Source: Arenicola marina (Eukaryota; Annelida; Polychaeta; Arenicolidae). From it: 64,000 nucleotides of DNA. The notes under the pieces were generated by a model. It was not told the DNA's origin and made no database searches. It saw only the letters and a list, made by a program, of their open reading frames with translations. The stretch's first letter is position 1, and every line of letters begins with the position of its first letter. Below are positions 30,247-59,400 of the stretch, piece after piece. Both the position numbers and the translations under genes were made by a program. The stretch is from positions 35,105,759 to 35,169,758 of the forward strand of contig OZ025249.1 of NCBI GenBank assembly GCA_964019135.1, written 5' to 3'.

Positions 30247-30527
30247 TGTTTTGATAGGTAGGCCAGTGGGTGGGTCTCAGTGCCCAGCCCAGAGTTCCTT
30301 AAAATTATAAGACATCCTAGCAATACATATGGGACATTAATTAAAATAAAATATTATGTAACTTAGTCTGCTTACTATATATTTATTTGTTTTGATAGGT
30401 AGGCAAGTGGGTGGGTCTCAGTGCCCGGCCCAGAGCTCCTTAAAATTATAAGACATCCTAGCAATATATATGGGACATTAATTAAAATAAAATATTATGT
30501 AACTTAGTCTGCTTACTATATATTTAC
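30247..30527. repeat. 141-bp tandem duplication
   Basis: A segment beginning TGTTTTGATAGGTAGGC occurs twice with an offset of 141 bases (starts 30,247 and 30,388). The copies differ at only a few positions, so the duplication is young. Nothing in it looks coding. Confidence 0.95.
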
Positions 30528-31325: not shown

Positions 31326-31329
31326 AACC

Positions 31330-31463
31330 ACAGGCGCCTCAATCGTGGGTGGGTGGGGAGGGAGGGGGGGGGGCGGCTTCACACATGACATATGTGTGAA
31401 GCCGCCCCCCCCCCCCCACCCTACCGCCCCACCCACCCACGATTCGATTGAGGCGTCTGTGCC
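31330..31463. repeat. Long palindrome with G-run and C-run arms
   Basis: The left arm (about 31,330-31,386) reads CAGGCGCCTCAATCGTGGG, then a G-rich tract, then CGGCTTCACACAT. The right arm (about 31,391-31,462) is its reverse complement, ATGTGTGAAGCCG, a C-rich tract, and CCCACGATTCGATTGAGGCG. The loop is only a few bases. Arms of about 55-70 bases with small length differences would form a strong hairpin. It could be a fold-back element, but I see no clear target-site duplication. Confidence 0.9.
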
Positions 31464-31563
31464 TGTGGCTGTGGCCTGTGCTATAAAAGCTCTGCCAGTA
31501 ATGTAAAGTAATGGGCGACTTCACCTCTTTGTCTATTACATAGTCCGTATTCTTACCCAAATA

Positions 31564-34560: not shown

Positions 34561-34574
34561 AGAGCTGTAGAGGG

Positions 34575-36385: not shown

Positions 36386-36440
36386 CCAAATATTTCGCCC
36401 CGCTCGATGCTAATGTCCTATTCTAGGGCGAAATATTTGG
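36386..36440. repeat. Short perfect inverted repeat
   Basis: The arms CCAAATATTTCGCCC (36,386-36,400) and GGGCGAAATATTTGG (36,426-36,440) are perfect and can be extended outward with one mismatch (CGGG and CCCG). The loop is 25 bases. Confidence 0.9.
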
Positions 36441-36774
36441 CCCCGGCCGTTTCAAACTTACGGGCCCTGTACTAACGCATACCCTGGTGAAAAAACTTAT
36501 ACCTTCACCCCTCCCCTATGGCACCCCAAGGCCATGACACCCCACCTTTACCCCGAAAGCGAAGGAGAGACAGCATGTACAGCCCACATCTAATCTAGTC
36601 AGGTTCATAGGGCAGATTGAGAAAACGGGTGTAAATAAGGTTGATATTTATCATGAGATATATCAACGGGACTAGTAGAATTTGACAAATAAGTTCTGAT
36701 TCCTGATGACACCGGACTTCTGAGACAATATATGGATTTAATCATCAGATGAATGGTGTTACCAACATAGTCGC

Positions 36775-37125
36775 AAAGAACACTCGTCATAGTTTTCACA
36801 ATAAACACGTCACGTTTGTCACACGTGTCACACTGGTGGTCGTTTATTGTCACAATATACTCATTGTGTCACTGATTATTGTGCATCGTGTCACTTTTCT
36901 TGTCACAATGAACACGATGTGTCACAATGATGGGCGTGACTTGTGTCACCATTGGTGTCACTAATAACACGATGTCACAATGATTGTTATGAATTGTGTC
37001 ACCTTTCTTGTCTCAATGAACACGATGTGACACAACGATTGTCGTGAATTGCGTCACATTACTTGTCCCTATGAACACGACGTGTCACAATGATAGTCGT
37101 GATATGTGTCACCGTTCTCATCATT
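36775..37125 (+). repeat. 55-bp degenerate minisatellite (GTGTCAC/CACAATG)
   Basis: About six imperfect units share GAATTGTGTCACCTTTCTTG and AATGAACACGATGTG. Spacing is 55 bases where it can be measured (36,991 and 37,046). Each unit holds inverted GTGTCAC and GTGACAC words. Confidence 0.85.
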
Positions 37126-37348
37126 GAGCCGCATGTGCCACACAGGTTCTTAATTGCTTTAGTGCGCATAGCAGAGTAGCGGCGTTCCTGTTAGTGGTGT
37201 TACGGAAGTGGTCCAAGCTGGCTCGGAACCACCTATAACACTAACCAACCAACATTAACCACCTAAGGAATAGACTGGAGCTTATGGTTCTGTCGATTGA
37301 TAAATTATGTCCATATAAAATTGAGCTGATATATAGGAAATATTTGCT

Positions 37349-37534
37349 TTAACTGATAGCTTCTGAATAAGTGATCACAAGATTATAGAGGAAAATATTT
37401 GCTTTATAGCCGATAGGTTCTAAATCTGAATCTGAATCTGAAGTTGAAGAAAACGCTGTTGCTCCCGTTAACCCAGGCAGCAGCAGCAGCAGCAGCAGCA
37501 GCGGCGCCATACGGCTGCCACTCCCTCGCCACAA
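37349..37534 (-). CDS. Candidate secretory first exon built on a CTG repeat (weak)
   Basis: On the minus strand a frame starts MWRGSGSRMAPLLLLLLLL and continues PGLTGATAFSSTSDSDSD. The second methionine gives a textbook signal peptide: a short n-region, eight leucines from a CTG trinucleotide run (plus-strand CAG run at 37,478-37,502), and a small-residue cleavage region. No clear donor site or downstream exon was found, and the flanks look repetitive, so this may be chance. Confidence 0.2.
   Translation of the reverse strand: MWRGSGSRMAPLLLLLLLLPGLTGATAFSSTSDSDSDLEPIGYKANIFLYNLVITYSEAIS
37478..37502 (+). repeat. (CAG)8 microsatellite
   Basis: Eight uninterrupted CAG units lie between CCCAGG and CGGCGCC. 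Just upstream is a short (CTGAAT)n run, at about 37,425-37,440. Confidence 0.95.
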
Positions 37535-37997
37535 CGTGAAGAAGGCAAGAGCTTAGCCATTGTGGGGTGCGTGGTGAACTGGTGACGATGCATTAGGCGG
37601 CCACCACCGAGGGGGTGGTGCTGCGGTTCTGCCGAGTTCCTCGGGGAAGGCAATGGCATGAGTTTTAGCATCCTACCCCCCACCCTCAGGTGTGGCGGTG
37701 CCCGGGTGCCAGCCTCCACTCCCCACCCCCCCCGATTACACGCCCCCAGGTGTGGCACTCCTCGCAGACAGGGGCAGATGATGGAAGCGCCTGGTCGTCT
37801 CCTCGGTGCCATTGACTCAACACCTGCTCTCGGGGAGTTCGCCTTTATTATTATCTGATATCGACTTTGATCCTTTAAAGACGGGCTCTCAGCCATAAGG
37901 GTCTACCTACATCAAGCCTCATCCCTGCACCAGACGGTATACACCAATGTAAGACACTCTCCGACCGAGCGCGCACCGCTCGCGTCGCCCTCTCTCC

Positions 37998-38028
<31 letters not shown>

Positions 38029-38125
38029 CAGACTAACGCCCGTCGTGAACGCCCCCAAGCGGGGGAGTGTCTCTAGGCTGCTTGCTCAGCTATAACCTCA
38101 CACACAAAAAGGTACCACTGCTATA

Positions 38126-38230
38126 GTCACCCTGGTGTCTGTTGGCTCGCCAGTGCTCGTCACCCTGGTGCCTGTTGGCTGGCCAGTGCTCGTCGCCCTG
38201 GTGCCTGCTGGCTGGCCATTGCTAGTCACC
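38126..38230 (+). repeat. 33-bp tandem repeat, about three units
   Basis: Three units of GTCACCCTGGTGCCTGTTGG plus CTGGCCAGTGCTC follow one another with few changes. Confidence 0.9.
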
Positions 38231-38273
38231 CTTACGGCAGACAGGAATACGCGGCCAGTGCCCTCCAACAATA

Positions 38274-38621
38274 AGGTATGTAAGTGACGTCACAGACAGC
38301 GCGCGCTCACCTCTAGAAACAACCATTCTGGGTACAACGAGTCAGCGGGTCCCTATACTTTACTATGGGCGTCAAACTAGACTCGGTGATGTTTTGGATA
38401 TGAATGCACTGTTAGAGTTGAAAACCATGTGGAGTAAATGTTTGGGGCTGTACCTCCATACCATACTAGTTTTAAATCGAACGACGCTGGTTTTTTTGTG
38501 CGTTTCACGCAATTACAAAGAGCTCCCCGTGTTATGTATATGGGGCGGTGAAGTGTCATGTACCCAAAACCGGATTCGCTGGAGGTGAACGCGCGCTGTC
38601 TGTGACGTCACTTACAGACCC
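38274..38621. mobile_element. 348-bp MITE with TA flanks
   Basis: Terminal inverted repeats of about 38 bases pair the two ends. They begin AGGTATGTAAGTGACGTCAC on the left and GGGTCTGTAAGTGACGTCAC on the right (reverse-complemented), and continue ACAGACAGCGCGCG with few mismatches. Both ends are bordered by TA, which fits a Tc1/mariner-type target duplication, although two bases can match by chance. The interior has no coding capacity. The TIRs carry CRE-like TGACGTCA palindromes. Confidence 0.75.
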
Positions 38622-38949
38622 TATTACAGATTACGCTCGCGACACACGGCTTGGACCGGGAACCAGCTAGCGCACCAGTTGAGTTAATCCCAAAGTGGCC
38701 ATGGCTATGCTCCTCGGTGACAGGTGCTTTGATCACGTGGACTGTTCATCGGAAGTTTGACAAACTTCCGATGATTATGGAAATTGGGAATGGAGCCGTG
38801 AACGGGCCTTAATAGGCAATAGGAAGCTCACGCAGAGAGTGAGGCCAAGTGTGAGTGAACAGCGTCTATCAGGCATACAATCAGGGCTGGTCACGGCGCT
38901 CTAGTCAGCAGAGCGAACCGCAGCAGGCGGCAAGACAAGTGGCCTTATG
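38622..38949. other. Spacer with a small hairpin
   Basis: At about 38,748-38,776 the words CATCGGAAGTTTG and CAAACTTCCGATG form a perfect 13-base inverted repeat with a loop of a few bases. Nothing coding is seen. Confidence 0.7.
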
Positions 38950-39803
38950 ACCGGGTTAAAGTGGCCCTGGATGTCTACCCTAGTGATACCGGGTTAAAGT
39001 GGCCCTGGACATCTACCCTAGTGATACCGGGTTAAAGTGGCCCTGGACGTCTACCCTAGTGATACCGGGTTAAAGTGACCCTGGACATCTACCCTAGTGA
39101 TACCGGGTTAAAGTGGCCCTGGACGTCTACCCTAGTGATGCCGGGTTAAAGTGACCCTGGACATCTACCCTAGTGATACCGAGTAAAAAGTGGCCCTGGA
39201 GGTCTACCCTAGTGATACCGGGTTAAAGTGACCCTGGACGTCTACCCTAGTGATACCGGGTTAAAGTGGCCCTGGACGTCTACCCTAGTGATACCGGGTT
39301 AAAGTGACCCTGGACGTCTACCCTAGTGATACCGGGTTAAAGTGACCCTGGACGTCTACCCTAGTGATGCCGGGTTAAAGTGACCCTGGACATCTACCCT
39401 AGTGATACCGGGTTAAAGTGACCCTGGACGTCTACCCTAGTGATACCGGGTTAGTGACCCTGGACGTCTACCCTAGTGATACCGGGTTAAAGTGACCCTG
39501 GACGTCTACCCTAGTGATACCGGGTTAAAGTGACCCTGGACGTCTACCCTAGTGATACCGGGTTAAAGTGGCCCTGGACGTCTACCCTAGTGATACCGGG
39601 TTAAAGTGACCCTGAACCTCTACCCGTAGTGATACCGGGTTAAAGTGACCCTGAACCTCTACCCTAGTGATACCGGGTTGAAGCGACTCTGGACGTCTAC
39701 CCTGGTTATACGGGGTTAAAGTGACCCTGGACGTCTACCCTAGTGATACCGGGTAAAAAGTGATCTTCGATCTCTACCCTAGGACATCGGGTTGATGTGA
39801 CCC
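38950..39803 (+). repeat. 38-bp minisatellite (CCGGGTTAAAGTGACCCTGG)
   Basis: About 22 units of 38 bases share CCGGGTTAAAGTGACCCTGG and TCTACCCTAGTGATA. Variation is mainly GTGGCCC against GTGACCC and GACGTCT against GACATCT. The units at the right edge are more diverged. The sequence is unrelated to the other 38-bp array at 46 kb. Confidence 0.95.
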
Positions 39804-42034
39804 CAGAGTTGGGTGAGAGAGAAAGCTCGTGGGTTAACTAGTGCCCTCAATGTCACAGTCTGTCGTCCACCTACGTCATAACGGAGCGGTGACACCGGAG
39901 AACGCCTCTTACCTGAGGAAGACTGACAACGGAAATGGCTGTAACGATGGCGCCAGTGGGAGACGGACCGACTTGGATTGAATGAACCTTGTCTGGTCGG
40001 CCGCCACCTTTGTCTTTACCATTGTTCCTCAGCCCCGTACGCTGGCATCTCTCGGTGCGACGCTATCGATACACATCTGCTCCTGTGTGTGGCACGGTGA
40101 CTGGCGGTCCACACGCGGCTGGCGGGCGTCCTCCTCATACTAATGGTAGGTACATCGCAAAGGTTGATTTCATTAGGCACTATCAAATGGCGAGCTGGTG
40201 CATACATGCGTGCGGGCACAATGCCGGGATTCATCACAAGGGAAGGCTTTAGTCTGCTAATTGTCACGTGATGGCATTACGATCGGCGGGCGAAGAGCGC
40301 GAATGCCCTAATGACCACCGTCACGTTGCTATGGCGACGCTTGGGGTTGCAAGGACTTGACCGTAATCTGCACATGTGTACGTGTGCAATGTCTAGAGAG
40401 GTAGAGAGGGGGAGAGATAGAGGCAGAGAGAGGGGGTGGGATTTGCGGCAGTGACATCTATAGAGAGAGAAACAAAGCCATAGGTGGCGCATGTAAAGGG
40501 AGGGGGGTTCGAGTCGGGTGAGGAGGAGGAGGAAGGGGTGGGGGGGGGGGGGGTGGTGGCGGGGCTTTGGTAAGGCATGCTATCTGGCGTGTGTCAGGGT
40601 GAAAGCACGGCTGCCGTGTGGTGATGGCGCCCTGGGACAAATGATGGACCTAGCTCGTGCCCTGGTGCTTGGCCAGGTGTCTAGTGACGGCGTCAGCGTC
40701 AGCGGTGTCGTGGCACTCTCCCCTGCCCATTACGGCGGCAGCGCTTCTCCCCCTCGGCCCTGTCATGTACGTCACCATGGTGCCGGACGCGCAGCTACCA
40801 GTCGCCTGTTGTTTTTCGCGCTGACAACACGACACACAGCCCGCGCAGACTCATCGTCGACGCCACCGATCTATCACTTCTCAGTGGTGCCCGCTGCTAT
40901 CAAATTGGAGACTCTCGCGTAAATCGCGGCCGTGGATATCTTTATTGAATGACGTCGTGCAAATTCTGGTGAAGGAAACATTTTATTTTACCTGCGAGAA
41001 GGATAACGATTATTACTTATCACCGGACTTAGTGCGCGCCGAACCTGGGCTGGCAGGATGGGAATGTCGTTCCTTAATCGAATCCGCCACAAGCGTTAAT
41101 TGTTGGACTTTTACGCTGTCGGACACTCGAAACGTAAGCACAAAGGTGAAGTGTTAAGCAAATTATCTTAACTTTATGGATTGGAATCAATCGATATATC
41201 TCGCACAATGTCAATTCAATGATAAACCTTGCGTGTTGTCACCTAGCCAGCCTGGAGTCCGAGTGAATTGGAGGGGTTAAGGATCCGCAGTAACGACGAA
41301 GTACCCCTCCCCCCCCCACACCCCATCGTCTCCCCCCATTGAACCGCTGATGCCTCTGGGAAATGATGTGTCGCTTGATAGATGAGCGATTTAGAATCTG
41401 TGGGCTTCATAACAACCATGATGCCTTAAATCAAGGATTTGGGCGGATCCGTTCTAAAGGCATTACTTGTGGGTTCCATATGGTGTGTAGATATTTATCG
41501 AATTTATTTGGTCAGGGCTGGTCCCCGAGGTTCAAGTAAATGCCAACTATATAGCATATGGGGTTTGGCAGTGCGTCCTGTTTGTACGCAAGCGTTTCCG
41601 ATTTTCTCGAAGAATCCTATGTTGACTTAAGTGATAGACAGCTGCGAGGCTTGCTTGGTCGGAACCCTCCAAAAGACGACTCGCAAACAATTCACATACA
41701 GACCACGAAGAAAGAGAGAGAGAGCAGATTATCGGCAGAGGATCAATGCAAACAACGACTTACTGTATGCATGCCCTTCGCCCTCTACTATCTCGCTCAC
41801 TCCGCCTCTGGCTATTGCGCCATGCATTTGAATTACTACTTCTTTAGAGCGTCATCGATTTGCCTCTTCCAAACTCTATCTCTTATAGACAAGCACTTGC
41901 CATGCGATCGTTTCGCCTGTTCTCTTCCTGGAAGACCTCCTCTGCTCTTCCGCCTAGGTAGGTGGAAGAGGCTATTCCAAGCTCAATATGCGATATTCGC
42001 TCAATGTGACCAAATAGGTTTAAGAGAGAAAATA
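39804..42034. other. Region without a supported gene
   Basis: G-rich and GA-rich runs lie at about 40,400-40,560 (poly-G at about 40,542-40,553) and a poly-C run near 41,310. Several open frames exist, the longest at 41,558-42,055 (165 codons). None shows recognisable domains or a clear exon context. Confidence 0.4.
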
Positions 42035-42224
42035 GGGGAACATGGGGCAAAATGACCACCTTAACTTTATTTGCATTTTTTCGAGGACAAGCAGTGCTAT
42101 AAAAAGAGCTAAATTTTGGTAAACTGACAACAGTAATATTGTGAATAACATAGCTTGGATACATGCGAGTGACACGAACAAAATTTTTACTAGCACAGAA
42201 AACATGTTTTATGTCACAGTGGGT

Positions 42225-42252
42225 TATTTTGCCCCCCTAGTGGGGCAAAATA
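42225..42252. repeat. Inner palindrome resembling the element's ends
   Basis: TATTTTGCCCC and GGGGCAAAATA form 11-base arms around six bases. The GGGGCAAAAT word also occurs in the outer TIRs at 42,045, so this may be a pair of abutted ends from a related, nested element. Confidence 0.85.
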
Positions 42253-43194
42253 GTCAGCACATTATTTCAGCATGTTAATGAGTGAACTGAACAGCCTAAG
42301 AAGGCAAACTCCTAACTCTCTGGAACAGTTTGACCCAGAAGGATAACACACAGAAATTACAGATAACGATTACCTCAGCAGAGGCGATTTTTGCGCCATT
42401 TTTCGGTTCAAAATTTAGGCCATCTGAGGCGCAGAACTCAGCTTTATGCGAAGTCCTACTGCTGAACAGACCCGGGGCAGGGGCGATTCCAAGGGGGGCC
42501 GACCCGGCCCCGGCCGCCCTTTTTAGGGCGGGAATTTATATAATTTATACCATTTACCGCCCCCCCCCCCTTATCCAGCATATCCGGATCCGACCCTGAA
42601 ACCGCTCCCCCCTCGGTTTTAGGGATGAGGGCGGGGGGGGGGGGGGGTAAGTAATACATTGCGGGATTTGGGGGGTTCCGGGGTAAATCTCCCCCCCTTT
42701 TTCACCGCCAAAATCCGCTCTATGAACGCACATTTTCAAAGGCCCCCCCACGATCGCTTTTAAATTTTTTTTTAATAGTTTTAAACTATTCGCTCTGTAG
42801 GGGTATATTTTTCATCATAAATGTCCGCTCTATAGGGGTATCTTTTTCATCATAAATATCCGCTCTCTCAGGCATCAAGGCACCCGCGGAACCCTCCCAC
42901 CAGATTTGTATAATAGTGCCCCCCCCCCCCTGCGTCTTTTCCTGACGAGCTGCTGGAAGGTATGACCCTTAGTTTCGCCGAGGTTTCTGACTTCTCGATA
43001 TCAGCCGGGCCTTGTCACACTCTTTCTGTTGGTGGGGACCGTAGCGGGACATTGCCCGTTACTTGGCGCTTGTATCGAATGAAGACACGATGTCACGTGC
43101 CGCCTGGCTCTGCCTCAATCAACGCTTCCGGCTCCCTGGGGCGCACAACTCTCCCTTCTTCAAGCTCCCTCTGTGGTATTGCCAACCTCTTCTC

Positions 43195-43540
43195 CATGTC
43201 AAATAAGTACATTCTGTCTTGAATTTAAATCCTGAAAGCCTGCGGCCTGTCCGGAGAGAAGCATTTTGGTCAACGGAGCAGAAGTTGGTGGCCGGCTTTA
43301 TATCATTGCGCGCCTGTTCGCACTTCGCTATTTTGCGTGTGATGTCGACCGCGGCTCGCTATCACGTCCGCGCGATATAAATCAACCGCGGAGTTTGATG
43401 TTGAAATGTTTGTTTTACAGACTCAAAGAGATATGAAACATAAGCATCATAAATTATAGATTATAAAGATACTTTAAGTCTTGGTTCTTAAATTTAAAAA
43501 ATCTAAGATGGCGCATATAACTATATTGCTTTAACATTTG
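43195..43540 (+). repeat. Dispersed repeat, copy B (inside the TIR element)
   Basis: This is the partner of the intronic copy at 16,256-16,600, in the same orientation and with similar length. The two share GCGCGCCTGTTCGC and AAATCTAAGATGGCGCAT. Confidence 0.85.
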
Positions 43541-43889
43541 ATCGCTGTATAAAAAATACGGCGCAGTATATTCCGCATCTGAATTACGTTTGGGGCTTGA
43601 CTTGGACTTATCTTTGATCGTGTTAATTTATCAAAATTTCCCCCCAAGCTAGTATCCACCGAGCTCTACTTTCTTCCAGTATTTACCATAAATGGCAACA
43701 GCCCAGAATCTTTTATTTCGGTAACGAGGGTCAGCTGTCTGCTTCAGCGCCCATTTAGATTTTTTAAGGTATCACGTAACAAACAGGAACAAATATAAAA
43801 CGCTTCAATGCAGGTGGCAGCACCGCAATTGCGCGATATTGTGGTGGGCCATTTGACCCCGATGGGTCATTTTGCTCCATGTTCCCCTA

Positions 43890-44180
43890 CATGAATGGAA
43901 CGATGAATAAACTTAATATGTGAAACATATGTAAAGTCATTATTTGGTTATTTGAAAGGTATGTGTCAGGTATATGAAGGCCCATATATGCAGTTAACCA
44001 TGTTGATGTCTGGCGATCACATATGGACGTACATGGGCGATAAATTCTGACCTATAAGTGAATTTGCGCCATATTGAAACTACTCTTCCAACTCGGTAGA
44101 CGCGATTGATTCATCGCTCATATTCTCTATTCTTGGATGAGCGCTTTTTCTTCCTGGTAGAGATGAAACGATTATCTCTT
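43890..44180. other. Short unremarkable spacer
   Basis: Nothing recognisable is seen in this AT-rich stretch between the TIR element and the pyrimidine-rich region. Confidence 0.5.
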
Positions 44181-44760
44181 CCTCCCCTCTTACCTATCAC
44201 ACTCCCTCTTAACGGCCTCACACTCCTTTTCAACGGACTCACACTCCCTTTTTTCTATTACCTTCTCTTAACGGCCTCTCACTCCCTCTTATCTATTACA
44301 CTTTTCTCTTTAAAACCTCACACCCCCCTTACGAAAATGAAATTTAGATTTCAGTCGAAATACAGGAAGCCCGCAACAGAAAGCTAACTGAACAGTTTTT
44401 TCACCTGACCCGGACTTTTTCGTACGGGTCCCTCTTATCTGGCTTGTCTATCGTTACCGCCTCTCACTCCCTCTTAAATATCACCCTGACGGCCTGACAC
44501 TCCCTGTTATCTACCACCCTTCTTTCTTTACGGCTTGGCATTCTCTATAATCTATCACATTTACTGCCTTTCATTCCATATCCATCTCTTTACTGCCTCT
44601 CATTCCGTCAGCTCTACCTCTCCCGCCTCTCTATCTCTGTCTCTCTTTATCATATATTCATTTTGGCTTCCTTGCGATATTTACTCTTGCTCTATATCTA
44701 TCTCTCCTATCTCAATCTTTCGATCGTTTGTCTTTGGATACGACTAATCAACCCTGAGAG
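44181..44760 (+). repeat. Pyrimidine-rich degenerate repeat
   Basis: Loose units around CGGCCTCACACTCCCTCTTA and TCTATTACAC recur about 12 times with irregular spacing. The stretch is strongly C/T-biased on the plus strand. Confidence 0.7.
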
Positions 44761-44958
44761 CTGTTGCCGGGCCACTGGGCTTCAGGGGGGTCTATAGGGT
44801 GGTTCCGTAAGATAGTGATTTGCAATGCACTCCTCGGGTGATAATAATACAATCTGGAAGTAACCACTTACGCTGCAAATTTAGTATGACAGATCTACTT
44901 ATCTCCCTTCACCACCATCAATAATGCGTGCATTTCGCTCACAACTTACCGATATGTA

Positions 44959-45050
44959 CAGTAAAACCTCTCTAAACCGAACGTTATTTTGACAGACCGA
45001 AACATTCGGTTTACAGAGTGGTTCGGTTAAACAATGTTATCCAGAACCTG
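44959..45050 (+). mobile_element. Fragment with a pogo/Tigger-like end
   Basis: TA followed by CAGTAAAACCTCTCTAAACC matches the general form of pogo-type terminal repeats as I know them, and repeated ACCGAA and TTCGGTT words follow. The opposite end was not found, so the call is tentative. Confidence 0.45.
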
Positions 45051-45808
45051 GCAGAAGATACAGTCTCAATGCGACAAATGTGCTGCCACAAGGGCGATAT
45101 TGGAGTCAAAATCTGGTAGCTGCGCCGCGAGAGGGAGGAAAACACGAATATCGGTTAAGCCCGAAGGGTACGTCAGCAGATTCGATAACAAAATAGGTCG
45201 TGGGAGGGTGTGAGGGATGGGGGAATGGGGCGGGGGGAGGGGAGGTGAAGACATTTTTGACGGGGCAGTGACACTGCGGTAGCCCAAACACATAACATAT
45301 TTTCTTAGCCTAATCCTTATAGCGAAGAGATTCAGTGATTGGCTATTGATTGGGTAGAAGACGCATTAACATTTGTATATCATTTCGCGACAATGGGAAA
45401 GGTCAAGGTAGAGATTTACACAGATGGTGGCTCGAACCCCGCGCAGTTCGCTTGACAGAGTACACTTGACAATAGCCGCACACATTACCGAATGACAACG
45501 GGGTGACCTCGCAATCGGATGTATCATGCAAGGACAAGTTTGCATCCGGGCTTCGGGTGACACCACTCCCCCGCCGGGATTCAGCTCCTTTGATGGCACC
45601 CTGTGTACATGTTTCTACAGCTAGTTCCTCCGGCGTCTGCGCTAATCATTATTCATCATGGGTGTCGTAATCATTTGGTGGGCTTCGGAATATATATTTT
45701 CCATGATATATTTGCTTTTCAGAACCGTTTGATTTCTATAATTATTATATATATATTATAGTCTATTTGATAATGAGTGACAATTTGTGTTTTGTGTTTT
45801 CCTTGCAG
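45051..45808. other. Spacer before the 45.8-kb exon
   Basis: No gene is supported. The last 30 bases form a strong polypyrimidine tract and acceptor (TTTTGTGTTTTCCTTGCAG). Confidence 0.5.
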
Positions 45809-46082
45809 TCAGCGCCCATGTACTCGCATTGGCGCAGGTATCAGGACAACGCATGGACAGCAAACCCTGCGCCTCAAGCAATGTCTAACCCAAGCAGGCA
45901 AATCAACTCTCGTCGCCTGCCGCCTCTGGCCAGTGGCGGCAAGAGGGGGCCAAGTCCCCAGGCCCCAGGGACGAGCCGCCCGAGTCACCCGAGTCCCGGC
46001 CACTTCGGTAGCACATCGAGGACATCCGCCAGTCCCAAAGCCATGCTCGCAACGAATCTTCATCAGGACATGGTCATCACAG
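45809..46082 (+). CDS. Internal coding exon of an unidentified gene
   Basis: A 274-base exon is bounded by a strong acceptor (TTTTCCTTGCAG, ending at 45,808) and the donor CAG|GTAGGT at 46,082/46,083. In the likely frame it starts SAPMYSHWRRYQDNAW, is then rich in Pro, Ser, Gly and Arg (LPPLASGGKRGPSPQAPG), and ends NLHQDMVITG in phase 1. The stretch looks disordered. The preceding and following exons were not found in the window, so the gene must have large introns. A second frame is also open, but it gives an Arg-rich sequence with less natural composition. The downstream intron begins directly with the 38-bp array made from this exon's 3' end. Confidence 0.65.
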
Positions 46083-49000
46083 GTAGGTTAACAGTGTGCT
46101 TTAGTACATGGTCATCACAGGTAAGTTAACAGTGTGCTTTAGTACATGGTCATCACAGGTAAGTTAGGAATCTGCTTCAGGACATGCTCGTCACAGGTAA
46201 GTTAGCACCAGATAGTCTGCTTTAGGACAGGGTCATCACAGGTAAGTTAACAGTGTGCTTTAGTACATGGTCATCACAGGTAAGTTAGAAATCTGCTTCA
46301 GGACATGGTCATCAAAGGTAAATTAACAATCTGCTTCAGGACATGGTCATCACAGGTAAGTTAACAATCTGCTTCAGGACATGGTCATCAAAGGTAAATT
46401 AACAATCTGCTTCAGGACATGGTCGTCGCAGGTAAGTTAACAATCTGCTTCAGGACATGGTCATCAAAGGTAAATTAACAATCTGCTTCAGGACATGGTC
46501 GTCGCAGGTAAGTTAACAATCTGCTTCAATACATCATCATCACAGTTAAGTTAACAATCTGCTTCAGGACATGGTCATCACAGGTAAGTTAACAATCTGC
46601 TTCAGGACATGGTCGTCGCAGGTAAGTTAACAATCTGCTTCAGGACATGGTCATCACAGGTAAGTTAACAATCTGCTTCAGGACATGGTCATCACAGGTA
46701 AGTTAACAATCTGCTTCAGGACCTGGTCGTCGCAGGTAAGTTAACAATCTGCTTCAATACATCATCATCACAGTTAAGTTAACAATCTGCTTCATGACAT
46801 GGTCGTCGCAGGTAAGTTGACAATCTGCTTCAGGACATGGTCATCACAGGTAAGTTAGGAATCTGCTTCAGGACATGCTCGTCACAGGTAAGTTAACAAT
46901 CTGCTTCAGGACATGGTCATCACAGGTAAGTTAACAATCTGCTTCAGGACCTGGTCGTCGCAGGTAAGTTAACAATCTGCTTCATGACATGGTCGTCGCA
47001 GGTAAGTTAACAATCTGCTTCAGGACATGGTCATCACAGGTAAGTTAACAATCTGCTTCATGACATGGTCGTCGCAGGTAAGTTAACAATCTGCTTCAGG
47101 ACATGGTCATCAAAGGTAAATTAACAATCTGCTTCAGGACATGGTCGTCGCAGGTAAGTTAACAATCTGCTTCAGGACATGGTCATCACAGGTAAGTTAA
47201 CAATCTGCTTCAGGACCTGGTCGTCGCAGGTAAGTTAACAATCTGCTTCATGACATGGTCGTCGCAGGTAAGTTAACAATCTGCTTCAGGACATGGTCAT
47301 CACAGGTAAGTTAACAATCTGCTTCAGGACATGGTCATCACAGGTAAGTTAACAATCTGCTTCAGGACATGGTCGTCGCAGGTAAGTTAACAATCTGCTT
47401 CAGGACATGGTCATCACAGGTAAGTTAACAATCTGCTTCATTACATGGTCGTCGCAGGTAAGTTAACAATCTGCTTTAGGACATGGTCATCACAGGTAAG
47501 TTAACAATCTGCTTCAGGACATGGTCATCACAGGTAAGTTAACAATCTGCTTCAGGACATGGTCATCAAAGGTAAATTAACAATCTGCTTCAGGACATGG
47601 TCGTCGCAGGTAAGTTAACAATCTGCTTCAGGACATGGTCATCACAGGTAAGTTAACAATCTGCTTCATGACATGGTCGTCGCAGGTAAGTTAACAATCT
47701 GCTTCAGGACATGGTCATCACAGGTAAGTTAACAATCTGCTTCAGGACATGGTCATCACAGGTAAGTTAACAATCTGCTTCAGGACATGGTCATCAAAGG
47801 TAAATTAACAATCTGCTTCAGGACATGGTCGTCGCAGGTAAGTTAACAATCTGCTTCAGGACATGGTCATCAAAGGTAAATTAACAATCTGCTTCAGGAC
47901 ATGGTCGTCGCAGGTAAGTTAACAATCTGCTTCAATACATCATCATCACAGTTAAGTTAACAATCTGCTTCAGGACATGGTCATCACAGGTAAGTTAACA
48001 ATCTGCTTCAGGACATGGTCGTCGCAGGTAAGTTAACAATCTGCTTCAGGACATGGTCATCACAGGTAAGTTAACAATCTGCTTCAGGACATGGTCATCA
48101 CAGGTAAGTTAACAATCTGCTTCAGGACCTGGTCGTCGCAGGTAAGTTAACAATCTGCTTCAATACATCATCATCACAGTTAAGTTAACAATCTGCTTCA
48201 TGACATGGTCGTCGCAGGTAAGTTGACAATCTGCTTCAGGACATGGTCATCACAGGTAAGTTAGGAATCTGCTTCAGGACATGCTCGTCACAGGTAAGTT
48301 AACAATCTGCTTCAGGACATGGTCATCACAGGTAAGTTAACAATCTGCTTCAGGACCTGGTCGTCGCAGGTAAGTTAACAATCTGCTTCATGACATGGTC
48401 GTCGCAGGTAAGTTAACAATCTGCTTCAGGACATGGTCATCACAGGTAAGTTAACAATCTGCTTCATGACATGGTCGTCGCAGGTAAGTTAACAATCTGC
48501 TTCAAGACATGGTCATCAAAGGTAAATTAACAATCTGCTTCAGGACATGGTCGTCGCAGGTAAGTTAACAATCTGCTTCAGGACATGGTCATCACAGGTA
48601 AGTTAACAATCTGCTTCAGGACCTGGTCGTCGCAGGTAAGTTAACAATCTGCTTCATGACATGGTCGTCGCAGGTAAGTTAACAATCTGCTTCAGGACAT
48701 GGTCATCACAGGTAAGTTAACAATCTGCTTCAGGACATGGTCATCACAGGTAAGTTAACAATCTGCTTCAGGACATGGTCATCACAGGTAAGTTAACAAT
48801 CTGCTTCATGACATGGTCATCACAGGTAAGTTAACAATCTGCTTCAGGACATGGTCATCACAGGTAAGTTAACAATCTGCTTCAGGACATGGTCATCACA
48901 GGTAAGTTAACAATCTGCTTCAGGACATGGTCATCACAGGTAAGTTAACAATCTGCTTCAGGACATGGTCATCACAGGTAAGTTAACAATCTGCTTCAGG

Positions 49001-50760
49001 ACATGGTCATCACAGGTAAGTTAACAATCTGCTTCATGACATGGTCATCACAGGTAAGTTAACAATCTGCTTCAGGACATGGTCATCACAGGTAAGTTAA
49101 CAATCTGCTTCAGGACATGGTCATCAAAGGTAAATTAACAATCTTCTTCAGGACATGGTCATCACAGGTAAGTTAACAATCTGCTTCAGGACATGGTCAT
49201 CACAGGTAAGTTAACAATCTGCTTCAGGACATGGTCATCAAAGGTAAATTAACAATCTGCTTCAGGACATGGTCGTCGCAGGTAAGTTGACAATCTGCTT
49301 CAGGACATGGTCATCACAGGTAAGTTAACAATCTGCTTCAGGACCTGGTCGTCGCAGGTAAGTTAACAATCTGCTTCATGACATGGTCATCACAGGTAAG
49401 TTAACAATCTGCTTCAGGACCTGGTCGTCGCAGGTAAGTTAACAATCTGCTTCATGACATGGTCATCACAGGTAAGTTAACAATCTGCTTCAGGACATGG
49501 TCATCACAGGTAAGTTAACAATCTGCTTCAGGACATGGTCCTCACAGGTAAGTTAACAATCTGCTTCAGGACATGGTCATCACAGGTAAGTTAACAATCT
49601 GCTTCAGGACATGGTCATCACAGGTAAGTTAACAATCTGCTTCAGGACATGGTCATCACAGGTAAGTTAACAATCTGCTTCAGGACATGGTCATCACAGG
49701 TAAGTTAACAATCTGCTTCAGGACATGGTCATCACAGGTAAGTTAACAATCTGCTTCAGGACATGGTCATCACAGGTAAGTTAACAATCTGCTTCATGAC
49801 ATGGTCGTCGCAGGTAAGTTAACAATCTGCTTTAGGACATGGTCATCACAGGTAAGTTAACAATCTGCTTCAGGACATGGTCATCACAGGTAAGTTAACA
49901 ATCTGCTTCAGGACATGGTCATCAAAGGTAAATTAACAATCTGCTTCAGGACATGGTCGTCGCAGGTAAGTTAACAATCTGCTTCAGGACATGGTCATCA
50001 CAGGTAAGTTAACAATCTGCTTCATGACATGGTCGTCGCAGGTAAGTTAACAATCTGCTTCAGGACATGGTCATCACAGGTAAGTTAACAATCTGCTTCA
50101 GGACATGGTCATCACAGGTAAGTTAACAATCTGCTTCAGGACATGGTCATCAAAGGTAAATTAACAATCTGCTTCAGGACATGGTCGTCGCAGGTAAGTT
50201 AACAATCTGCTTCAGGACATGGTCATCACAGGTAAGTTAACAATCTGCTTCAGGACATGGTCATCACAGGTAAGTTAACAATCTGCTTCAGGACATGGTC
50301 ATCACAGGTAAGTTAACAATCTGCTTCAGGACCTGGTCGTCGCAGGTAAGTTAACAATCTGCTTCAATACATCATCATCACAGTTAAGTTAACAATCTGC
50401 TTCAGGACATGGTCATCACAGGTAAGTTAACAATCTGCTTCAGGACATGGTCATCACAGGTAAGTTAACAATCTGCTTCAGGACCTGGTCGTCGCAGGTA
50501 AGTTAACAATCTGCTTCAGGACATGGTCATCACAGGTAAGTTAACAATCTGCTTCAGGACATGGTCATCACAGGTAAGTTAACAATCTGCTTCAGGACAT
50601 GGTCATCACAGGTAAGTTAACAATCTGCTTCAATACATCATCATCACAGTTAAGTTAACAATCTGCTTCAGGGCATGGTCATCACTGCTTTAATACATCA
50701 TCATCACAGGTAGGTTAGCAACGGAAAATGTGCTTCATGATATGGTCATGACAGTTAAGT
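46055..50760 (+). repeat. 38-bp minisatellite made of an exon-intron junction (about 120 splice-donor copies)
   Basis: The unit aligns end to end with the last 28 bases of the exon (46,055-46,082) plus the first ten intron bases: AATCTGCTTCAG, then GACATGGTCATCACAG, then GTAAGTTAAC. Array length divided by 38 gives about 120 units. Most carry CAG|GTAAGT, the full consensus complementary to U1 snRNA. Minor variants read AAG|GTAAAT (from CATCAAAGGTAAATT) or CAG|TTAAGT, which would not be donors. Other changes are GTCGTCGCAG against GTCATCACAG. The first few units after the exon and the last few near 50,700 are the most diverged. The array lies in the sense direction within the intron. Confidence 0.95.
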
Positions 50761-51759
50761 TAACAACTTATAATCGGCTGCAGGACAAACATTTCTTTAT
50801 TAAAGCCTTCAACAATGACACAATTATCGGCCGTCCTAAATCCTAGCCTCATAGTGATCTTGACGCCACTTGCAGGCGATCTCGCTTGTTGATCGAGGGT
50901 TGAGTCAACTCTAAAACAACATCCGTCAATAGACATTGAAATCTACATATGGCGCTTTAGCCTACACGTAAGCCGACTTCACCGATTGATGCTAGGCATT
51001 GTCGTAGAGTATAAGTTTCCCTGTTTCGTGTCTCGGTAATCAACGGCCTGTAATTGCTGCCTACCTTCCGGTTGTTTGCCTTTATTCGCTTCACACACAG
51101 GATCGTGTGTCAGTGTCAGGCGACCAAATGTGTTGCGCGGGGTTTACTATGTCGTGTGAGGTAATAATCATCATGACTCGCATGTCTGCGCGCGGTATCT
51201 ATGGTTACGCAACATCGCTCCTTATATGGACTGAGCAGGCGAGGAAAAAGGTGTTCCGTTGGTCGCAGAAATGTAAACATCGATGATTTGCCTCAAAATA
51301 CAACGCTTCCAACTATCTCATTGAACGGACCACATGCATTATGGAGAGATAAATGTCTTATCTTTAACTATATTATGATTTTATAATTAGCAATGCCTGG
51401 ACGAAAGCAAACATAAAATAGTTTCACACCCACTCGATTCTTCACGCACAAACCTCGCAGAGAGCCGGTTCCCAACACTCAAACGTTGACTACAACGAGT
51501 GCGCGTCAAGCAGCTGCAGCAAGGCACCAGCGTGATGCGCACTCGTTTTTTTGTTGGTCTCCAAAAGACATAAACCGGAAATAGAACCCGCGAAAACTGT
51601 ACAGCCCTATTGTCAGCATTCTGACCAAACTGAAAAAAAAAATTGCCGGTGCGAGGGGTGGTTCTATTAAATACGATATAGTTTATTCATATATATGGAA
51701 GGTTGGATGGATGCATAGAAATGACGTTGTGCCATTTTGCCCGACAATCTTGCATTATA
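50761..51759. other. Non-coding region after the splice-site array
   Basis: No exon with supporting splice signals was found. The continuation of the gene with the 45.8-kb exon is not visible here. Confidence 0.5.
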
Positions 51760-52262
51760 TACCCAGTAAACACAAAACGTTCGCACAACGTGGGTTTTGG
51801 GTTGTAATCACGTCATCTCAAAGTTAACATCAGGACAACGTTGTCGTTGTTACAACGTTTGTCGCAAAGATTTAACTAATATTCTCTAGCCTATGTTTCA
51901 TAAAAATAAAACATTTGCCATGTGTAGTGACTGATCAAAATTGGCTGCGTGCAGCAATTGTTATAAATACAAAATGGTGAAAATTCGGGAGTGGACGTTT
52001 TTACAACTTTAGGACAACGTTACCTGAAAAATCAGACATCATGAAAACAGTATATAATTGATTGTCTTTGACAGTCATGCTTCTAATGAATTCATTATAT
52101 ATGCATTTGCTTTTCACAGAAGGCACAATTTTAATACTGGACTGAATGTCTGACAACGTTATCTGAAACCGCAAACAAAACCATAGATTTTCACGTGGTC
52201 ACAACGTTATTGCCACCAAAAGTAACCTTGTGTCGACGTTGTCATGACTGTTTGTTGGGTAC
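51760..52262. mobile_element. Candidate MITE rich in ACAACGTT
   Basis: The ends TACCCAGTAAACA (left) and TACCCAACAAACA (right, reverse-complemented) are imperfect inverted repeats about 500 bases apart. Between them the words ACAACGTT, CAACGTTGTC and related inverted copies recur about ten times. There is no coding capacity. No target duplication was established. Confidence 0.55.
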
Positions 52263-53454
52263 CTACTCCATGTTCTCATCTTGACGTATAGAGCTCAAAA
52301 TATTGTCACGCCACGTTCGAATATCTCTTTGTAACAGTTAACAAGGGTGATTCGCTTTGTATACACCTTGTAAACCAAACGTCGCCATGTACTTATAACG
52401 CAGCTCGTTATACTCGTTTGCCAACCACCAATCACTCTTGTTCTGCCTTACCAATGCATAAAACACGTGACAAATACATACGTTTGGGAAACCAGTGATT
52501 ATTTATAACATACTTTGGCTTGCCATGAATAATTGAGACTCACAATAGTATAAACCATGACAACGACGAAGCGCGTGCTGTCCCATCGACTTTTTTCCGT
52601 CACGTACGTCACATATTGGAATAGATAGGCGGCGAGAACAATGTATTGGTGACACGCGTCAAATGGCCCCTGAATGGCTTGAATAATTAAGAAGCTACTC
52701 TGCGGTTATTGGCTAACACGGGACGAGGCACGTGGCGTGCTGGTGAGGGGTGGGGCGGGTCGCCTTGGTAAGGAGAGGGCTCCGTCGTTAGTATCCTGTT
52801 TCCTGTTGGGGTTGGAGGCGGGTGCATGCGGGGGGGGGGGGGAGCAGAGCGTTGCAGGCAGAACTAGGTTGGTACCATCCCTTGTTGCCTCACCTGGAAT
52901 GGGTGGTTGTGGCCATATCGATACGTAGCGGTCAGGTCCCCGCCATGTACGTCATCCGCCATTGTAAGCGCTCACAGCGCCGCCAAGCGGCAGCGTTCGA
53001 CAATATTTACAATGACATCTCATGTTACGCATTCCGACTGTGCATCTCTTGCAATAGACTAATCAAAGTAACCATGGCAGCAAATGCGGTTTTGGCTGTG
53101 ATGGATCGGGATGAAACAAATCATCAAAGAAGCAGAATAACCTGACTAATGTGTCCAAACGACAGGGAACTTGTATATTAACACAAGTCAACGGAATACC
53201 GCCACACTGGGTCGGCACACGGCAATCCCTCCCTCTTTCAAGAGCGCTCTAGCTGCAACCTTAGAGATAAATTAACGTTCATGAACCCTCCGACTGCACC
53301 AAATCCATACCCTAACATACATATTACATGATACATGTTAGTGTCTGTATAAACTCAGTATGAAGCCAAATATGAGCCAATATCATCAGCCGAGAATGAG
53401 CTATTTTAAATTAACCTGACGGTCATATTTGACAGGCTGATATAGATGTGCATA
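52263..53454. other. Non-coding region before the 31-bp array
   Basis: A poly-G run lies at about 52,831-52,841. An open frame at 52,822-53,145 has no recognisable domain. Nothing else is supported. Confidence 0.45.
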
Positions 53455-56400
53455 TCTGACAATGGTCGAAGGTGCACCGCCCATGTCTGATTATGGGCGA
53501 AGGTGCACCGCCCATGCCTGGTAATGGTCGAAGGTCCCCCCCCCCCTCCCCCCCCCCCCCACCTGTCTGATAATGCACCTTCGCCTGATAATGGGCGAAT
53601 GTGCACCGCCCATGTCTGATAATGGTCGAAGGTGCCCCGCCCCCCCACCTGTCTGATAATGCACCTTCGCCTGATAATGGACGAAGGTGCACCGCCCATG
53701 CCTGATAATGGTCGAAGGTGCACCGCCCATGCTTGGTAATGGACGAAGGTACATCGCCCATGCCTGATAATGGTTGAAGGTGAACGGCCCATGTCTGATA
53801 ATGGTCGAAGTTGCACCGCCTACACCTGATAATGGTCGAAGTTGCACCGCCTACGCCTGATAATGGTCGAAGGTGCACCGCCAATGCCTGGCAATGGTCG
53901 AAGGTGCACCACCCATGCCTGGTAATGGTTGTAGGTGAACGGCCCATGTCTGATAATGGTCGAAGTTGCACCGCCTACGCCTGATAATGGTCGAAGGTCC
54001 CCCCCCCCCCTGTCTGATAATGCACCTTCGCCTGATAATGGGCGAATGTGCACCGCCCATGCCTGGTAATGGTCGAAGGTGCACCGCCCATGCCTGGTAA
54101 TGGTTGAAGGTGAACGGCCCATGTCTGATAATGGTCGAAGTTGCACCGCCTACGCCTGATAATGGTCGAAGGTGCACCGCCCATGCCTGATAATGGTCGA
54201 AGGTCCCCTCCCCCCCCTTGTCTGATAATGCACCTTCGCCTGATAATGGTCGAAGGTGCACCACCCATGCCTGGTAATGGTCGAAGGTGCACCGCCCATG
54301 CCTGGCAAGGGTTGAAGGTGCACCGCCCATGTCTGATAATGGTCGAAGGTGCACCGCCTACGCCTGATAATGGTCGAAGGTGCACCGCCCATGCCTGATA
54401 ATGGTCGAAGGCCCCCCCCCCCCCCTGTCTGATAATGCACCTTCGCCTGATAATGGTCGAAGGTGCACCACCCATGCCTGGTAATGGTCGAAGGTGCACC
54501 GCCCATGCCTGGCAATGGTTGAAGGTGCACCGCCCATGTCTGATAATGGTCGAAGGTGCACCGCCCAGGCCTGATAATGGTCGAAGGTCCCCCCCCCCCA
54601 CCCCACCTGTCTGATAATGCACCTTCGCCTGATAATGGGCGAATGTGCACCGCCCATGCCTGATAATGGTTGAAGGTGAACGGCCCATGTCTGATAATGG
54701 TCGAAGTTGCACCGCCTACGCCTGATAATGGTCGAAGTTGCACCGCCTACGCCTGATTATGGTCGAAGGTGCACCGCCCATGCCTGGTAATGGTCGAAGG
54801 TGCACCACCCATGCCTGGTAATGGTTGAAGGTGAACGGCCCATGTCTGATAATGGTCGAAGTTGCACCGCCTACGCCTGATAATGGTCGAAGGTGCACCG
54901 CCCATGCCTGATAACGGTCGAAGGTGCACCGCCCATGTCTGATAACGGTCGAAGGTCCCCCCCCCCCCTGTCTGATAATGCACCTTCGCCTGATAATGGG
55001 CGAATGTGCACCGCCCATGCCTGATAATGGTCGAAGTTGCACCGCCTACGCCTGATAATGGTCGAAGGTGCACCGCCCATGCCTGGTAATGGACGAAGGT
55101 GCCCCCCCCCCCTGTCTGATAATGCACCTTCGCCTGATAATGGGCGAATGTGCACCGCCCATGCCTGGTAATGGTCGAAGGTGCACCGCCCATGCCTGGT
55201 AATGGTTGAAGGTGAACGGCCCATGTCTGCTAATGGTCGGAGTTGCACCGCCTACGCCTGATAATGGTCGAAGGTGCACCGCCCATGCCTGATAATGGTC
55301 GAAGGTCCCCCCCCCTCCCCCTGTCTGATAATGCACCTTCGCCTGATAATGGTCGAAGGTGCACCACCCATGCCTGGTAATGGTCGAAGGTGCACCGCCC
55401 ATGCCTGGCAATGGTTGAAGGTGCACCGCCCATGTCTGATAATGGTCGAAGTTGCACCGCCTACGCCTGATAATGGTCGAAGGTGCACCGCCCATGCCTG
55501 GTAATGGTCGAAGGTGCACCACCCATGCCTGGTAATGGTCGAAGGTGCACCGCCCATGCCTGGTAATGGTCGAAGGTGCACCGCCCATGCCTGGTAATGG
55601 TCGAAGGTGCCCCGGCCATGCCTGATTATGGTCGAAGGTGCACCGCCCATGCCTGGCAAGGGTTGAAGGTGCACCGCCCATGTCTGATAATGGTCGAAGT
55701 TGCACCGCCTACGCCTGATAATGGTCGAAGGTGCACCGCCCATGCCTGATAATGGTCGAAGGCACCCCCCCCCTGTCTGATAATGCACCTTCGCCTGATA
55801 ATGGTCGAAGGTGCACCACCCATGCCTGGTAATGGTCGAAGGTGCACCGCCCATGCCTGGCAATGGTTGAAGGTGCACCGCCCATGTCTGATAATGGTCG
55901 AAGGTGCACCGCCCAGGCCTGATAATGGTCGAAGGTCCCCCCCCCACCCCACCTGTCTGATAATGCACCTTCGCCTGATAATGGGCGAATGTGCACCGCC
56001 CATGCCTGATAATGGTTGAAGGTGAACGGCCCATGTCTGATAATGGTCGAAGTTGCACCGCCTACGCCTGATTATGGTCGAAGGTGCACCGCCCATGCCT
56101 GGTAATGGTCGAAGGTGCACCACCCATGCCTGGTAATGGTTGAAGGTGAACGGCCCATGTCTGATAATGGTCGAAGTTGCACCGCCTACGCCTGATAATG
56201 GTCGAAGGTGCACCGCCCATGCCTGATAATGGTCGAAGGCCCCCCCCCCCTGTCTGATAATGCACCTTCGCCTGATAATGGTCGAAGGTGCACCACCCAT
56301 GCCTCGTAATGGTCGAAGGTCCCCCCCCCCCCCCCACTGTCTGATAATGCACCTTCGCCTGATAATGGGTGAAGGTGCACCACCCATGCCTGGTAATGGT

Positions 56401-59400
56401 CGAAGGTGCACCGCCCATGCCTGGCAATGATTGAAGGTGCACCGCCCATGTCTGATAATGGTCGAAGTTGCACCGCCTACGCCTGATAATGGTCGAAGGT
56501 GCACCGCCCATGCCTGATAATGGACGAAGGTGCCCCGCCCCCCCCCCCCCCCCTGTCTGATAATGCACCTTCGCCTGATATTGGGCGAATGTGCACCGCC
56601 CATGCCTGATAATGGTCGAAGTTGCTCCGCCTACGCCTGATAATGGTCGAAGGTGCACCGCCCATGCCTGGTAATGGACGAAGGTGCCCCCCCCCCCCCT
56701 GTCTGATAATGCACCTTCGCCTGATAATGGGCGAATGTGCACCGCCCATGCCTGGTAATGTTCGAAGGTGCACCGCCCATGCCTCGTAATGGTTGAAGGT
56801 GAACGGCCCATGTCTGATAATGGTCGAAGTTGCACCGCCTACGCCTGATAATGGTCGAAGGTGCACCGCCCATGCCTGATAACGGTCGAAGGTCCCCCCC
56901 CCCCCTGTCTGATAATGCACCTTCGCCTGATAATGGTCGAAGGTGCACCGCCCATGCCTGGCAATGGTTGAAGGTGCACCGCCCATGTCTGATAATGGTC
57001 GAAGTTGCACCGCCTACGCCTGATAATGGTCGAAGGTACACCGCCCATGCCTGGTAATGGACGAAGGTGCCCCCCCCCCCCTGTCTGATAATGCACCTTC
57101 GCCTGATAATGGGCGAATGTGCACCGCCCATGCCTGGTAATGGTCGAAGGTGCACCGCCCATGCCTGGTAATGGTTGAAGGTGAACGGCCCATGTCTGAT
57201 AATGGTCGAAGTTGCACCGCCTACGCCTGATAATGGTCGAAGGTGCACCGCCCATGCCTGATAACGGTCGAAGGTGCACCGCCCATGTCTGATAACGGTC
57301 GAAGGTCCCCCCCCCCCCCTGTCTGATAATGCACCTTCGCCTGATAATGGTCGAAGGTGCACCACCCATGCCTCGTAATGGTCGAAGGTCCCCCCCCCCC
57401 ACTGTCTGATAATGCACCTTCGCCTGATAATGGGCGAAGGTGCACCACCCATGCCTGGTAATGGTCGACGGTGCACCGCCCATGCCTGGCAATGATTGAA
57501 GGTGCACCGCCCATGTCTGATAATGGTCGAAGTTGCACCGCCTACGCCTGATAATGGTCGAAGGTGCACCGCCCATGCCTGATAATGGACGAAGGTGCCC
57601 CGCCCCCCCCCCCTGTCTGATAATGCACCTTCGCCTGATAATGGGCGAATGTGCACCGCCCATGCCTGATAATGGTCGAAGTTGCTCCGCCTACGCCTGA
57701 TAACGGTCGAAGGTGCACCGCCCATGCCTGGTAATGGACGAAGGTGCCCCCCCCCCCCTGTCTGATAATGCACCTTCGCCTGATAATGGGCGAATGTGCA
57801 CCGCCCATGCCTGGTAATGTTCGAAGGTGCACCGCCCATGCCTCGTAATGGTTGAAGGTGAACGGCCCATGTCTGATAATGGTCGAAGTTGCACCGCCTA
57901 CGCCTGATAATGGTCGAAGGTGCACCGCCCATGCCTGATAACGGTCGAAGTTCCCCCCCCCCTCCCCCTGTCTGATAATGCACCTTCGCCTGATAATGGT
58001 CGAAGGTGCACCGCCCATGCCTGGCAATGGTTGAAGGTGCACCGCCCATGTCTGATAATGGTCGAAGTTGCACCGCCTACGCCTGATAATGGTCGAAGGT
58101 GCACCGCCCATGCCTGGTAATGGACGAAGGTGCCCCCCCCCCCTGTCTGATAATGCACCTTCGCCTGATAATGGGCGAATGTGCACCGCCCATGCCTGGT
58201 AATGGTCGAAGGTGCACCGCCCATGCCTGGTAATGGTTGAAGGTGAACGGCCCATGTCTGATAATGGTCGAAGTTGCACCGCCTACGCCTGATAATGGTC
58301 GAAGGTGCACCGCCCATGCCTGATAACGGTCGAAGGTGCACCGCCCATGTCTGATAACGGTCGAAGGTCCCCCCCCCCCCCCTGTCTGATAATGCACCTT
58401 CGCCTGATAATGGGCGAATGTGCACCGCCCATGCCTGATAATGGTCGAAGTTGCACCGCCTACGCCTGATAATGGTCGAAGGTGCACCGCCCATGCCTGG
58501 TAATGGACGAAGGTGCCCCCCCCCCCTGTCTGATAATGCACCTTCGCCTGATAATGGGCGAATGTGCACCGCCCATGCCTGGTAATGGTCGAAGGTGCAC
58601 CGCCCATGCCTGGTAATGGTTGAAGGTGAACGGCCCATGTCTGCTAATGGTCGGAGTTGCACCGCCTACGCCTGATAATGGTCGAAGGTGCACCGCCCAT
58701 GCCTGATAATGGTCGAAGGTCCCCCCCCCTCCCCCTGTCTGATAATGCACCTTCGCCTGATAATGGTCGAAGGTGCACCACCCATGCCTGATAATGGTCG
58801 AAGGTGCACCGCCCATGTCTGATAACGGTCGAAGGTCCCCCCCCCCCCCTGTCTGATAATGCACCTTCGCCTGATAATGGGCGAATGTGCACCGCCCATG
58901 CCTGATAATGGTCGAAGTTGCACCGCCTACGCCTGATAATGGTCGAAGGTGCACCGCCCATGCCTGGTAATGGACGAAGGTGCCCCCCCCCCCTGTCTGA
59001 TAATGCACCTTCGCCTGATAATGGGCGAATGTGCACCGCCCATGCCTGGTAATGGTCGAAGGTGCACCGCCCATGCCTGGTAATGGTTGAAGGTGAACGG
59101 CCCATGTCTGCTAATGGTCGGAGTTGCACCGCCTACGCCTGATAATGGTCGAAGGTGCACCGCCCATGCCTGATAATGGTCGAAGGTCCCCCCCCCCTCC
59201 CCCTGTCTGATAATGCACCTTCGCCTGATAATGGTCGAAGGTGCACCACCCATGCCTGGTAATGGTCGAAGGTGCACCGCCCATGTCTGATAATGGTCGA
59301 AGTTGCACCGCCTACGCCGGATAATGGTCGAAGGTGCACCGCCCATGCCTGATAATGGTCGAAGGTGCCCCGCCCCCCCCCCCCCTGTCTGATAATGCAC

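Follow-up and report, generated by a model that had tools for sequence, protein, structure and literature searches.

A mirage-like minisatellite of about 120 units at a predicted exon-intron border in Arenicola marina

Extent of the array and its donor copies

A 64,000-nucleotide stretch of the Arenicola marina genome (hereafter, the window) contains a tandem array that starts inside a predicted exon and repeats the 5' splice site at its end. What could more than a hundred successive donor sites mean for the splicing of one intron? The answer that we favour, at somewhat better than even confidence, is a mirage-type array: an exon-border segment amplified neutrally and tolerated by splicing. 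We read the array as something other than a functional U1 sink. The features concerned are as follows.

45787-45808, forward strand: 3' splice site, a pyrimidine-rich tract ending TTTTCCTTGCAG, read from the sequence (weight-matrix score 7.54)
45809-46082, forward strand: predicted internal exon of 274 nt, 61% GC, open in frames 0 (91 codons) and 1, proposed from the acceptor rank and an exon scan
46055-46092, forward strand: unit 1, the presumed founder copy, donor CAG|GTAGGT (35/38 to consensus; U1 pairing -11.8 kcal/mol)
46093-50685, forward strand: array core of 38-bp units, mostly with CAG|GTAAGT (TRF, alignment, donor count)
50686-50764, forward strand: imperfect units at the tail, including a copy of CAG|GTAGGT at 50707-50715 (alignment, donor count)

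The unit structure was observed directly. TRF reported a minisatellite of period 38 at 46055-50685 (121.7 copies, 92% matches), and wrap-around alignment cut the array into 126 segments, 121 of them core units (119 free of indels), with imperfect copies continuing past 50685 to about 50764. The 38-bp minisatellite of about 120 units proposed in the original prediction for approximately 46055-50760 is thus confirmed and, at 38 bp by 121.7 copies, it falls within the minisatellite size range of mirages. Of the 121 core units, 50 show the exact consensus; in all, 22 types of unit can be told apart. No exact match to the unit pattern was found in viral and prokaryotic contig collections, a comparison that is uninformative for animal sequence, and Rfam returned no match at gathering score.

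Unit 1 consists of the final 28 nt of the predicted exon and the next 10 nt, and thereby spans the predicted border 46082/46083. It had been proposed that the repeat unit equals these 28 exonic and 10 intronic bases; the layout is indeed so placed, but identity between unit 1 and the array consensus is 35 of 38 positions rather than complete, and the three differences include the donor. The 25 bases ahead of unit 1 (46030-46054) match the consensus in only 13 of 38 columns.

The donor copies, likewise a direct observation, were classified in 124 segments: 102 carry CAGGTAAGT, 12 AAGGTAAAT, seven CAGTTAAGT (in which the GT is lost) and one CAGGTAGGT, while two are decayed. Weak or dead donors therefore account for 19 of the 124 segments, the two decayed ones apart. 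A plain scan of the array found 102 copies of CAGGTAAGT on the forward strand and none on the reverse, and the sequence is absent from both strands in the rest of the 64-kb window. In the same scan CAGGTAGGT appeared twice, in unit 1 and in the tail copy at 50707-50715, which are the two ends of the array. Counting weaker variants, 116 GT sites could act as donors, such that duplicated AG/GT signals are present in many units. It was correctly anticipated that most units keep CAG|GTAAGT in sense orientation (102 of 124 segments, all forward), and about a hundred strong donors, 102 of them full U1 matches, would lie in one predicted intron. The exon's own donor reads CAG|GTAGGT rather than CAG|GTAAGT, and the CAG|GTAAGT of the consensus unit is slightly better.

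Pairing energies with the U1 5' end were -12.1 kcal/mol for the consensus unit, -11.8 for unit 1, and -6.8 and -5.4 for the two variants. Among 2927 forward-strand GT sites in 1-46000, 0.07% pair as strongly as the unit and 0.14% as strongly as unit 1. Sites of -11.8 kcal/mol or better number four on the forward strand and none on the reverse in 1-46054, and none on the forward strand 3' of the array. Twenty-one other arrays of the window were examined on both strands over their first three periods plus 20 nt (a list that excludes overlapping TRF rows and those at 21086-21133 and 37477-37502); none contained a donor of this strength (best -10.8), and the idea that they too are mirages is not supported.

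Several of the window's other repeats deserve mention in their own right. The minisatellite at 38950-39803 also has a 38-bp unit (22.5 copies), of different sequence and without a strong donor. A larger one, with a 31-bp unit and in part TRF periods of 62 and 80-93 bp, occupies 53456-64000 and runs off the window; it would share the intron of the array if the gene continues. At 2086-4346 lies a 92-bp minisatellite (about 24.6 copies), in which a higher-order period of 455 bp is also present. A dispersed repeat pair (16257-16601 and 43194-43537) has the same orientation and 78% identity over 353 aligned positions.

The predicted exon and its surroundings

Much depends on whether 45809-46082 is an exon. 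By weight-matrix score, the acceptor at 45809 ranked fifth of 3078 forward-strand AGs, and 0.11% of 3582 reverse-strand AGs scored as well. Both strands were scanned for exons of 30-450 nt with one open frame, an acceptor of 3.0 or more and a donor of -8 or lower. Of the 27 acceptor-donor pairs obtained, 45809-46120 (19.6) and 45809-46082 (19.3) came first; there is overlap among the pairs, and donors of the array itself contribute to this ranking. The window's best exon candidates finish precisely in units 1 and 2, and the best pair unrelated to them scored 16.2, on the reverse strand. GC content is 61% in the predicted exon against 44% on either side.

Coding evidence is neutral or unfavourable. 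Codon usage, trained on an MGAT4-like open reading frame of the window, gave frame 0 a score of -0.22, a value equalled or bettered by 47% of 2469 other stop-free windows; frame 1 scored -0.21. Among 5241 segments starting after an AG, 443 have a frame that stays open for 274 nt, as do 190 of the 506 whose GC content is at least 58%. Frame 0 of the predicted exon matched nothing in Pfam or PDB. Pfam searches named no gene in the flanks (42001-46100 and 50701-53460, three forward frames), in 32501-42100, in 50700-53460 on the reverse strand or in 1-1990 on the forward strand, and a PDB search with one frame of 42001-46100, other than frame 0 of the exon, named none either; 22601-32600 gave only the MGAT4-like frame and one match below cut-off. 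Outside the Pfam scan lay 1991-22600 on the forward strand and 1-50699 on the reverse (both except for eight open reading frames), the array, and 53461-64000. No next exon was identified; candidate acceptors lie 3' of the array at 51101 and 52120.

The MGAT4-like frame itself (24606-26276, forward, 557 uninterrupted codons) matched MGAT4_cons at 2.8e-17 and MGAT4A_C at 1.5e-12 in Pfam, and represents an MGAT4-like glycosyltransferase that is apparently intronless in this stretch. Retroelement-like remains occupy about 10423-12903, including a reverse-strand open reading frame (11605-12903) in which Pfam recognises a CCHC zinc knuckle (8.9e-06) and a forward frame (10423-10926) that resembles reverse transcriptase by eye only, with no significant Pfam match.

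These results bear on the possibility that the array is a minisatellite of the ordinary kind, intergenic or intronic, that happens to carry a donor-like 9-mer in its unit, the "exon" being a GC-rich open stretch behind an acceptor-like site. The missing Pfam and PDB matches would fit this, as would a codon usage no better than that of many stop-free windows; moreover, the more than 20 arrays of the window offer opportunities for coincidence, and the finding was chosen from a scan. Strong donors are nevertheless rare, with four on the forward strand and none on the reverse in 1-46054, and the fifth-ranked of 3078 acceptors is separated from the first donor of the array by the length of an ordinary exon. 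That the exon and its 38-nt longer variant head the 27 pairs also argues against chance, although the array donors feed that ranking. We consider a chance origin unlikely. The mirage reading has its own points against it, namely an exon without homology or codon-usage support, the lack of an identified downstream exon, the far smaller unit numbers of the published mirages compared here and the acceptor-side position of BflGb6, the best described of them; 45809-46082 is put forward here as a prediction that we judge likelier to be right than wrong.

Growth of the array and comparison with known boundary repeats

The history of the array is partly legible in its unit order, where block duplication and a difference between edges and centre were observed directly.

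46323-47098, forward strand: 776-bp block with an exact copy 1406 bp (37 units) downstream at 47729-48504, a block duplication within the array

Within this exact repeat, 20 consecutive units recur at a distance of 37 units. At lag 37, 37 of 84 unit pairs match, where 2000 permutations of the unit order lead one to expect 20% (z 6.9). At lag 62, a stretch of 10 units is found again in identical form. Such block repeats at unit lags indicate that the array grew partly by block copying, and are compatible, within this single sequence, with the length instability of mirages. The same 776-bp exact internal repeat might be taken as a sign of faulty assembly, the true array being shorter and only made to look this long by misjoined reads or alleles. 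However, the 22 unit types follow one another in irregular order, and even an inflated array would probably still contain dozens of units; we regard an artefact as extremely improbable.

The edge units are the most divergent, while the centre is homogenised. The presence of GTAGGT at both ends and of GTAAGT in mid-array suggests that GTAGGT is the ancestral donor form. For a mirage-type origin we infer the following sequence of events. The first step would have been the tandem duplication of 38 bp straddling the exon's 3' border (28 nt exonic, 10 nt intronic), the copying having begun at that border. Expansion to about 120 copies would have followed by slippage or unequal exchange together with the copying of blocks of up to dozens of units, and the change from GTAGGT to GTAAGT would have spread through the middle, leaving older forms at the edges.

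The original prediction had named "mirages" of amphioxus as a precedent, and the precedent is real (PMC3087553, PMC3902484). As described in PMC3087553, mirages are minisatellite-like repeats at exon-intron boundaries, found in Adh3, BflGb6 and BflGb9; Adh3 data and RT-PCR suggest that regular splicing is undisturbed by them, and the edges of mirage clusters escape homogenisation. In common with these, the present array is a tandem repeat across an exon-intron boundary (here a predicted one) with AG/GT in many units and with edge units outside homogenisation (PMC3087553). It differs in copy number (about 120, where the BflGb6 haplotypes have 6 and 3), in unit length (38 bp against 150-160 bp, the Adh3 units being quoted there as 10-72 bp) and in side: the donor is multiplied here, whereas BflGb6, the best described case, involves the acceptor and BflGb9 a duplicate of a donor-side border (PMC3087553).

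In lancelet PGBD5, repeats of 60 and 108 bp are described, the first of each abutting a 5' splice site (PMC3902484). The first repeat lies at a 5' splice site in both cases and the repeats overlap splice borders; PGBD5, however, has 2 or 7 copies of 60 bp and 3 or 6 of 108 bp depending on the assembly, the copies are imperfect, and the gene is known by homology (PMC3902484). The Rogers model, in which introns are gained by tandem duplication of AGGT-containing segments (cited in PMC3087553; cf. PMC4974935), shares the tandem duplication across an AGGT border, but here an existing border would be multiplied inside an intron, and no new intron is evident.

The suggestion that this may be an extreme mirage is borne out in size, the copy numbers in the parts of PMC3087553 and PMC3902484 considered here being far below 120. 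A literature search turned up no boundary array of this size, with the copy numbers of the founding Adh paper (NAR 2002 30:2871) outside the comparison. Our best reading is that the array is mirage-like and extreme in size; its kind is already in print.

Donor choice and possible effects on splicing

How such an array might be borne by its gene is suggested by the stops, which were observed directly: all three forward frames are interrupted within the array. In exon frame 0 the first stop lies at 46127, and only donors 1 and 2 of the 116 are free of a frame-0 stop, donors 3-116 all bringing one; frame 1 remains stop-free only with donor 1, and donors 2-116 bring a stop. Use of donor 2 (46120) would add 38 nt (46083-46120), change the phase of the exon end from 1 to 0 and shift the downstream phase. 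Under a mirage-type reading, the array would lie within the intron, and the exon would be defined by the upstream acceptor and either donor 1 or donor 2; any transcript cut at a donor further along would meet a premature stop and be degraded. The array is probably tolerated by splicing because the exon would be defined from its acceptor and the other donors yield premature stops.

A different possibility is that the array works as a U1 platform, some 116 sites on the nascent RNA suppressing premature polyadenylation, retaining the RNA on chromatin or slowing splicing. It would draw on the 102 full-match donors in 4.6 kb, present only on the sense strand, and on the array's freedom from AATAAA and ATTAAA, the first ATTAAA standing at 50799, just 3' of the array. 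The lack of poly(A) signals nevertheless follows from the repetition of one 38-bp unit, and seven units have lost the GT while 12 are weak. Variable columns make up 4 of 9 in the donor and 16 of 29 elsewhere (Fisher p 0.71); since donor columns are as variable as others, nothing suggests that donors are maintained by selection, and selection on them is rejected. In folding, CAGGU pairs with AUCUG of the units, and the mean unpaired fraction is 0.26 at donors (n=101), compared with 0.40 across the array; the exon's own donor has 0.37. Donors would thus sit partly in stems, which also speaks against a platform. A consensus 12-mer gives 0.25, but values no higher than that of the consensus also come from 9 of 60 shuffled units, which is not significant, and masking of donors by RNA structure is not supported. 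A functional U1 platform appears very improbable. U1 is abundant, a ground for doubting that a single locus affects it globally, and we consider the global titration of U1 snRNP that had been envisaged implausible for one locus. With unconserved donor columns and weak or dead donors in 19 of 124 segments, the other proposed consequences (poly(A) suppression, slow splicing, varied exon 3' ends) are similarly unsupported.

A recursive splice site, or ratchet point, is defined by a pyrimidine tract before CAG|GTAAGT. If CACAG|GTAAGT served as both acceptor and donor, the array could be trimmed in multiples of 38 nt, each cut at a unit's AG|GT restoring a donor, as in human UBC. Precedents exist in the tandem dual-specific splice sites of UBC and likewise VCX3A, where each tandem unit carries an AG|GT site as here; the UBC repeat, however, is coding with sites proven in both directions, whereas the present array has stops in three frames and a weak acceptor side (PMC10809524). 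The unit reads CATGGTCATCACAG|GTAAGT (score -1.1) and contains no pyrimidine tract ahead of its donor. By weight-matrix score, its three AGs fall at the 85th, 88th and 17th percentiles as acceptors, the AG|GT site itself scoring weakly, at the 85th. Of 343 AGs in the array, two exceed the 95th percentile of the background, and the best scores 2.5 compared with 7.5 for the exon's acceptor. Recursive or dual-specific splicing is accordingly very unlikely.

A further conjecture, which we hold to be distinctly unlikely, is a self-similar intron, in which the 116-site array would be tolerated and yet active on nascent RNA, being trimmed recursively or binding many U1 particles with the mRNA unchanged. 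It follows from the form of the units: intact ones end in CACAG (or CGCAG) followed by GTAAGT, and a splice from unit to unit would therefore restore the same exon end and donor. If true, donor-bearing border arrays could grow almost without limit.

Returning to the mirage-type reading, the locus would, if the exon is real, constitute a natural experiment in splice-site choice, with more than 100 further donors directly after the authentic one, of which 102 equal or surpass it in U1 pairing. It would then test whether the first donor owes its protection to exon definition or to first-come recognition, and what number of decoy donors an intron can gather harmlessly. It would be relevant, too, to the idea that new introns originate from boundary minisatellites.
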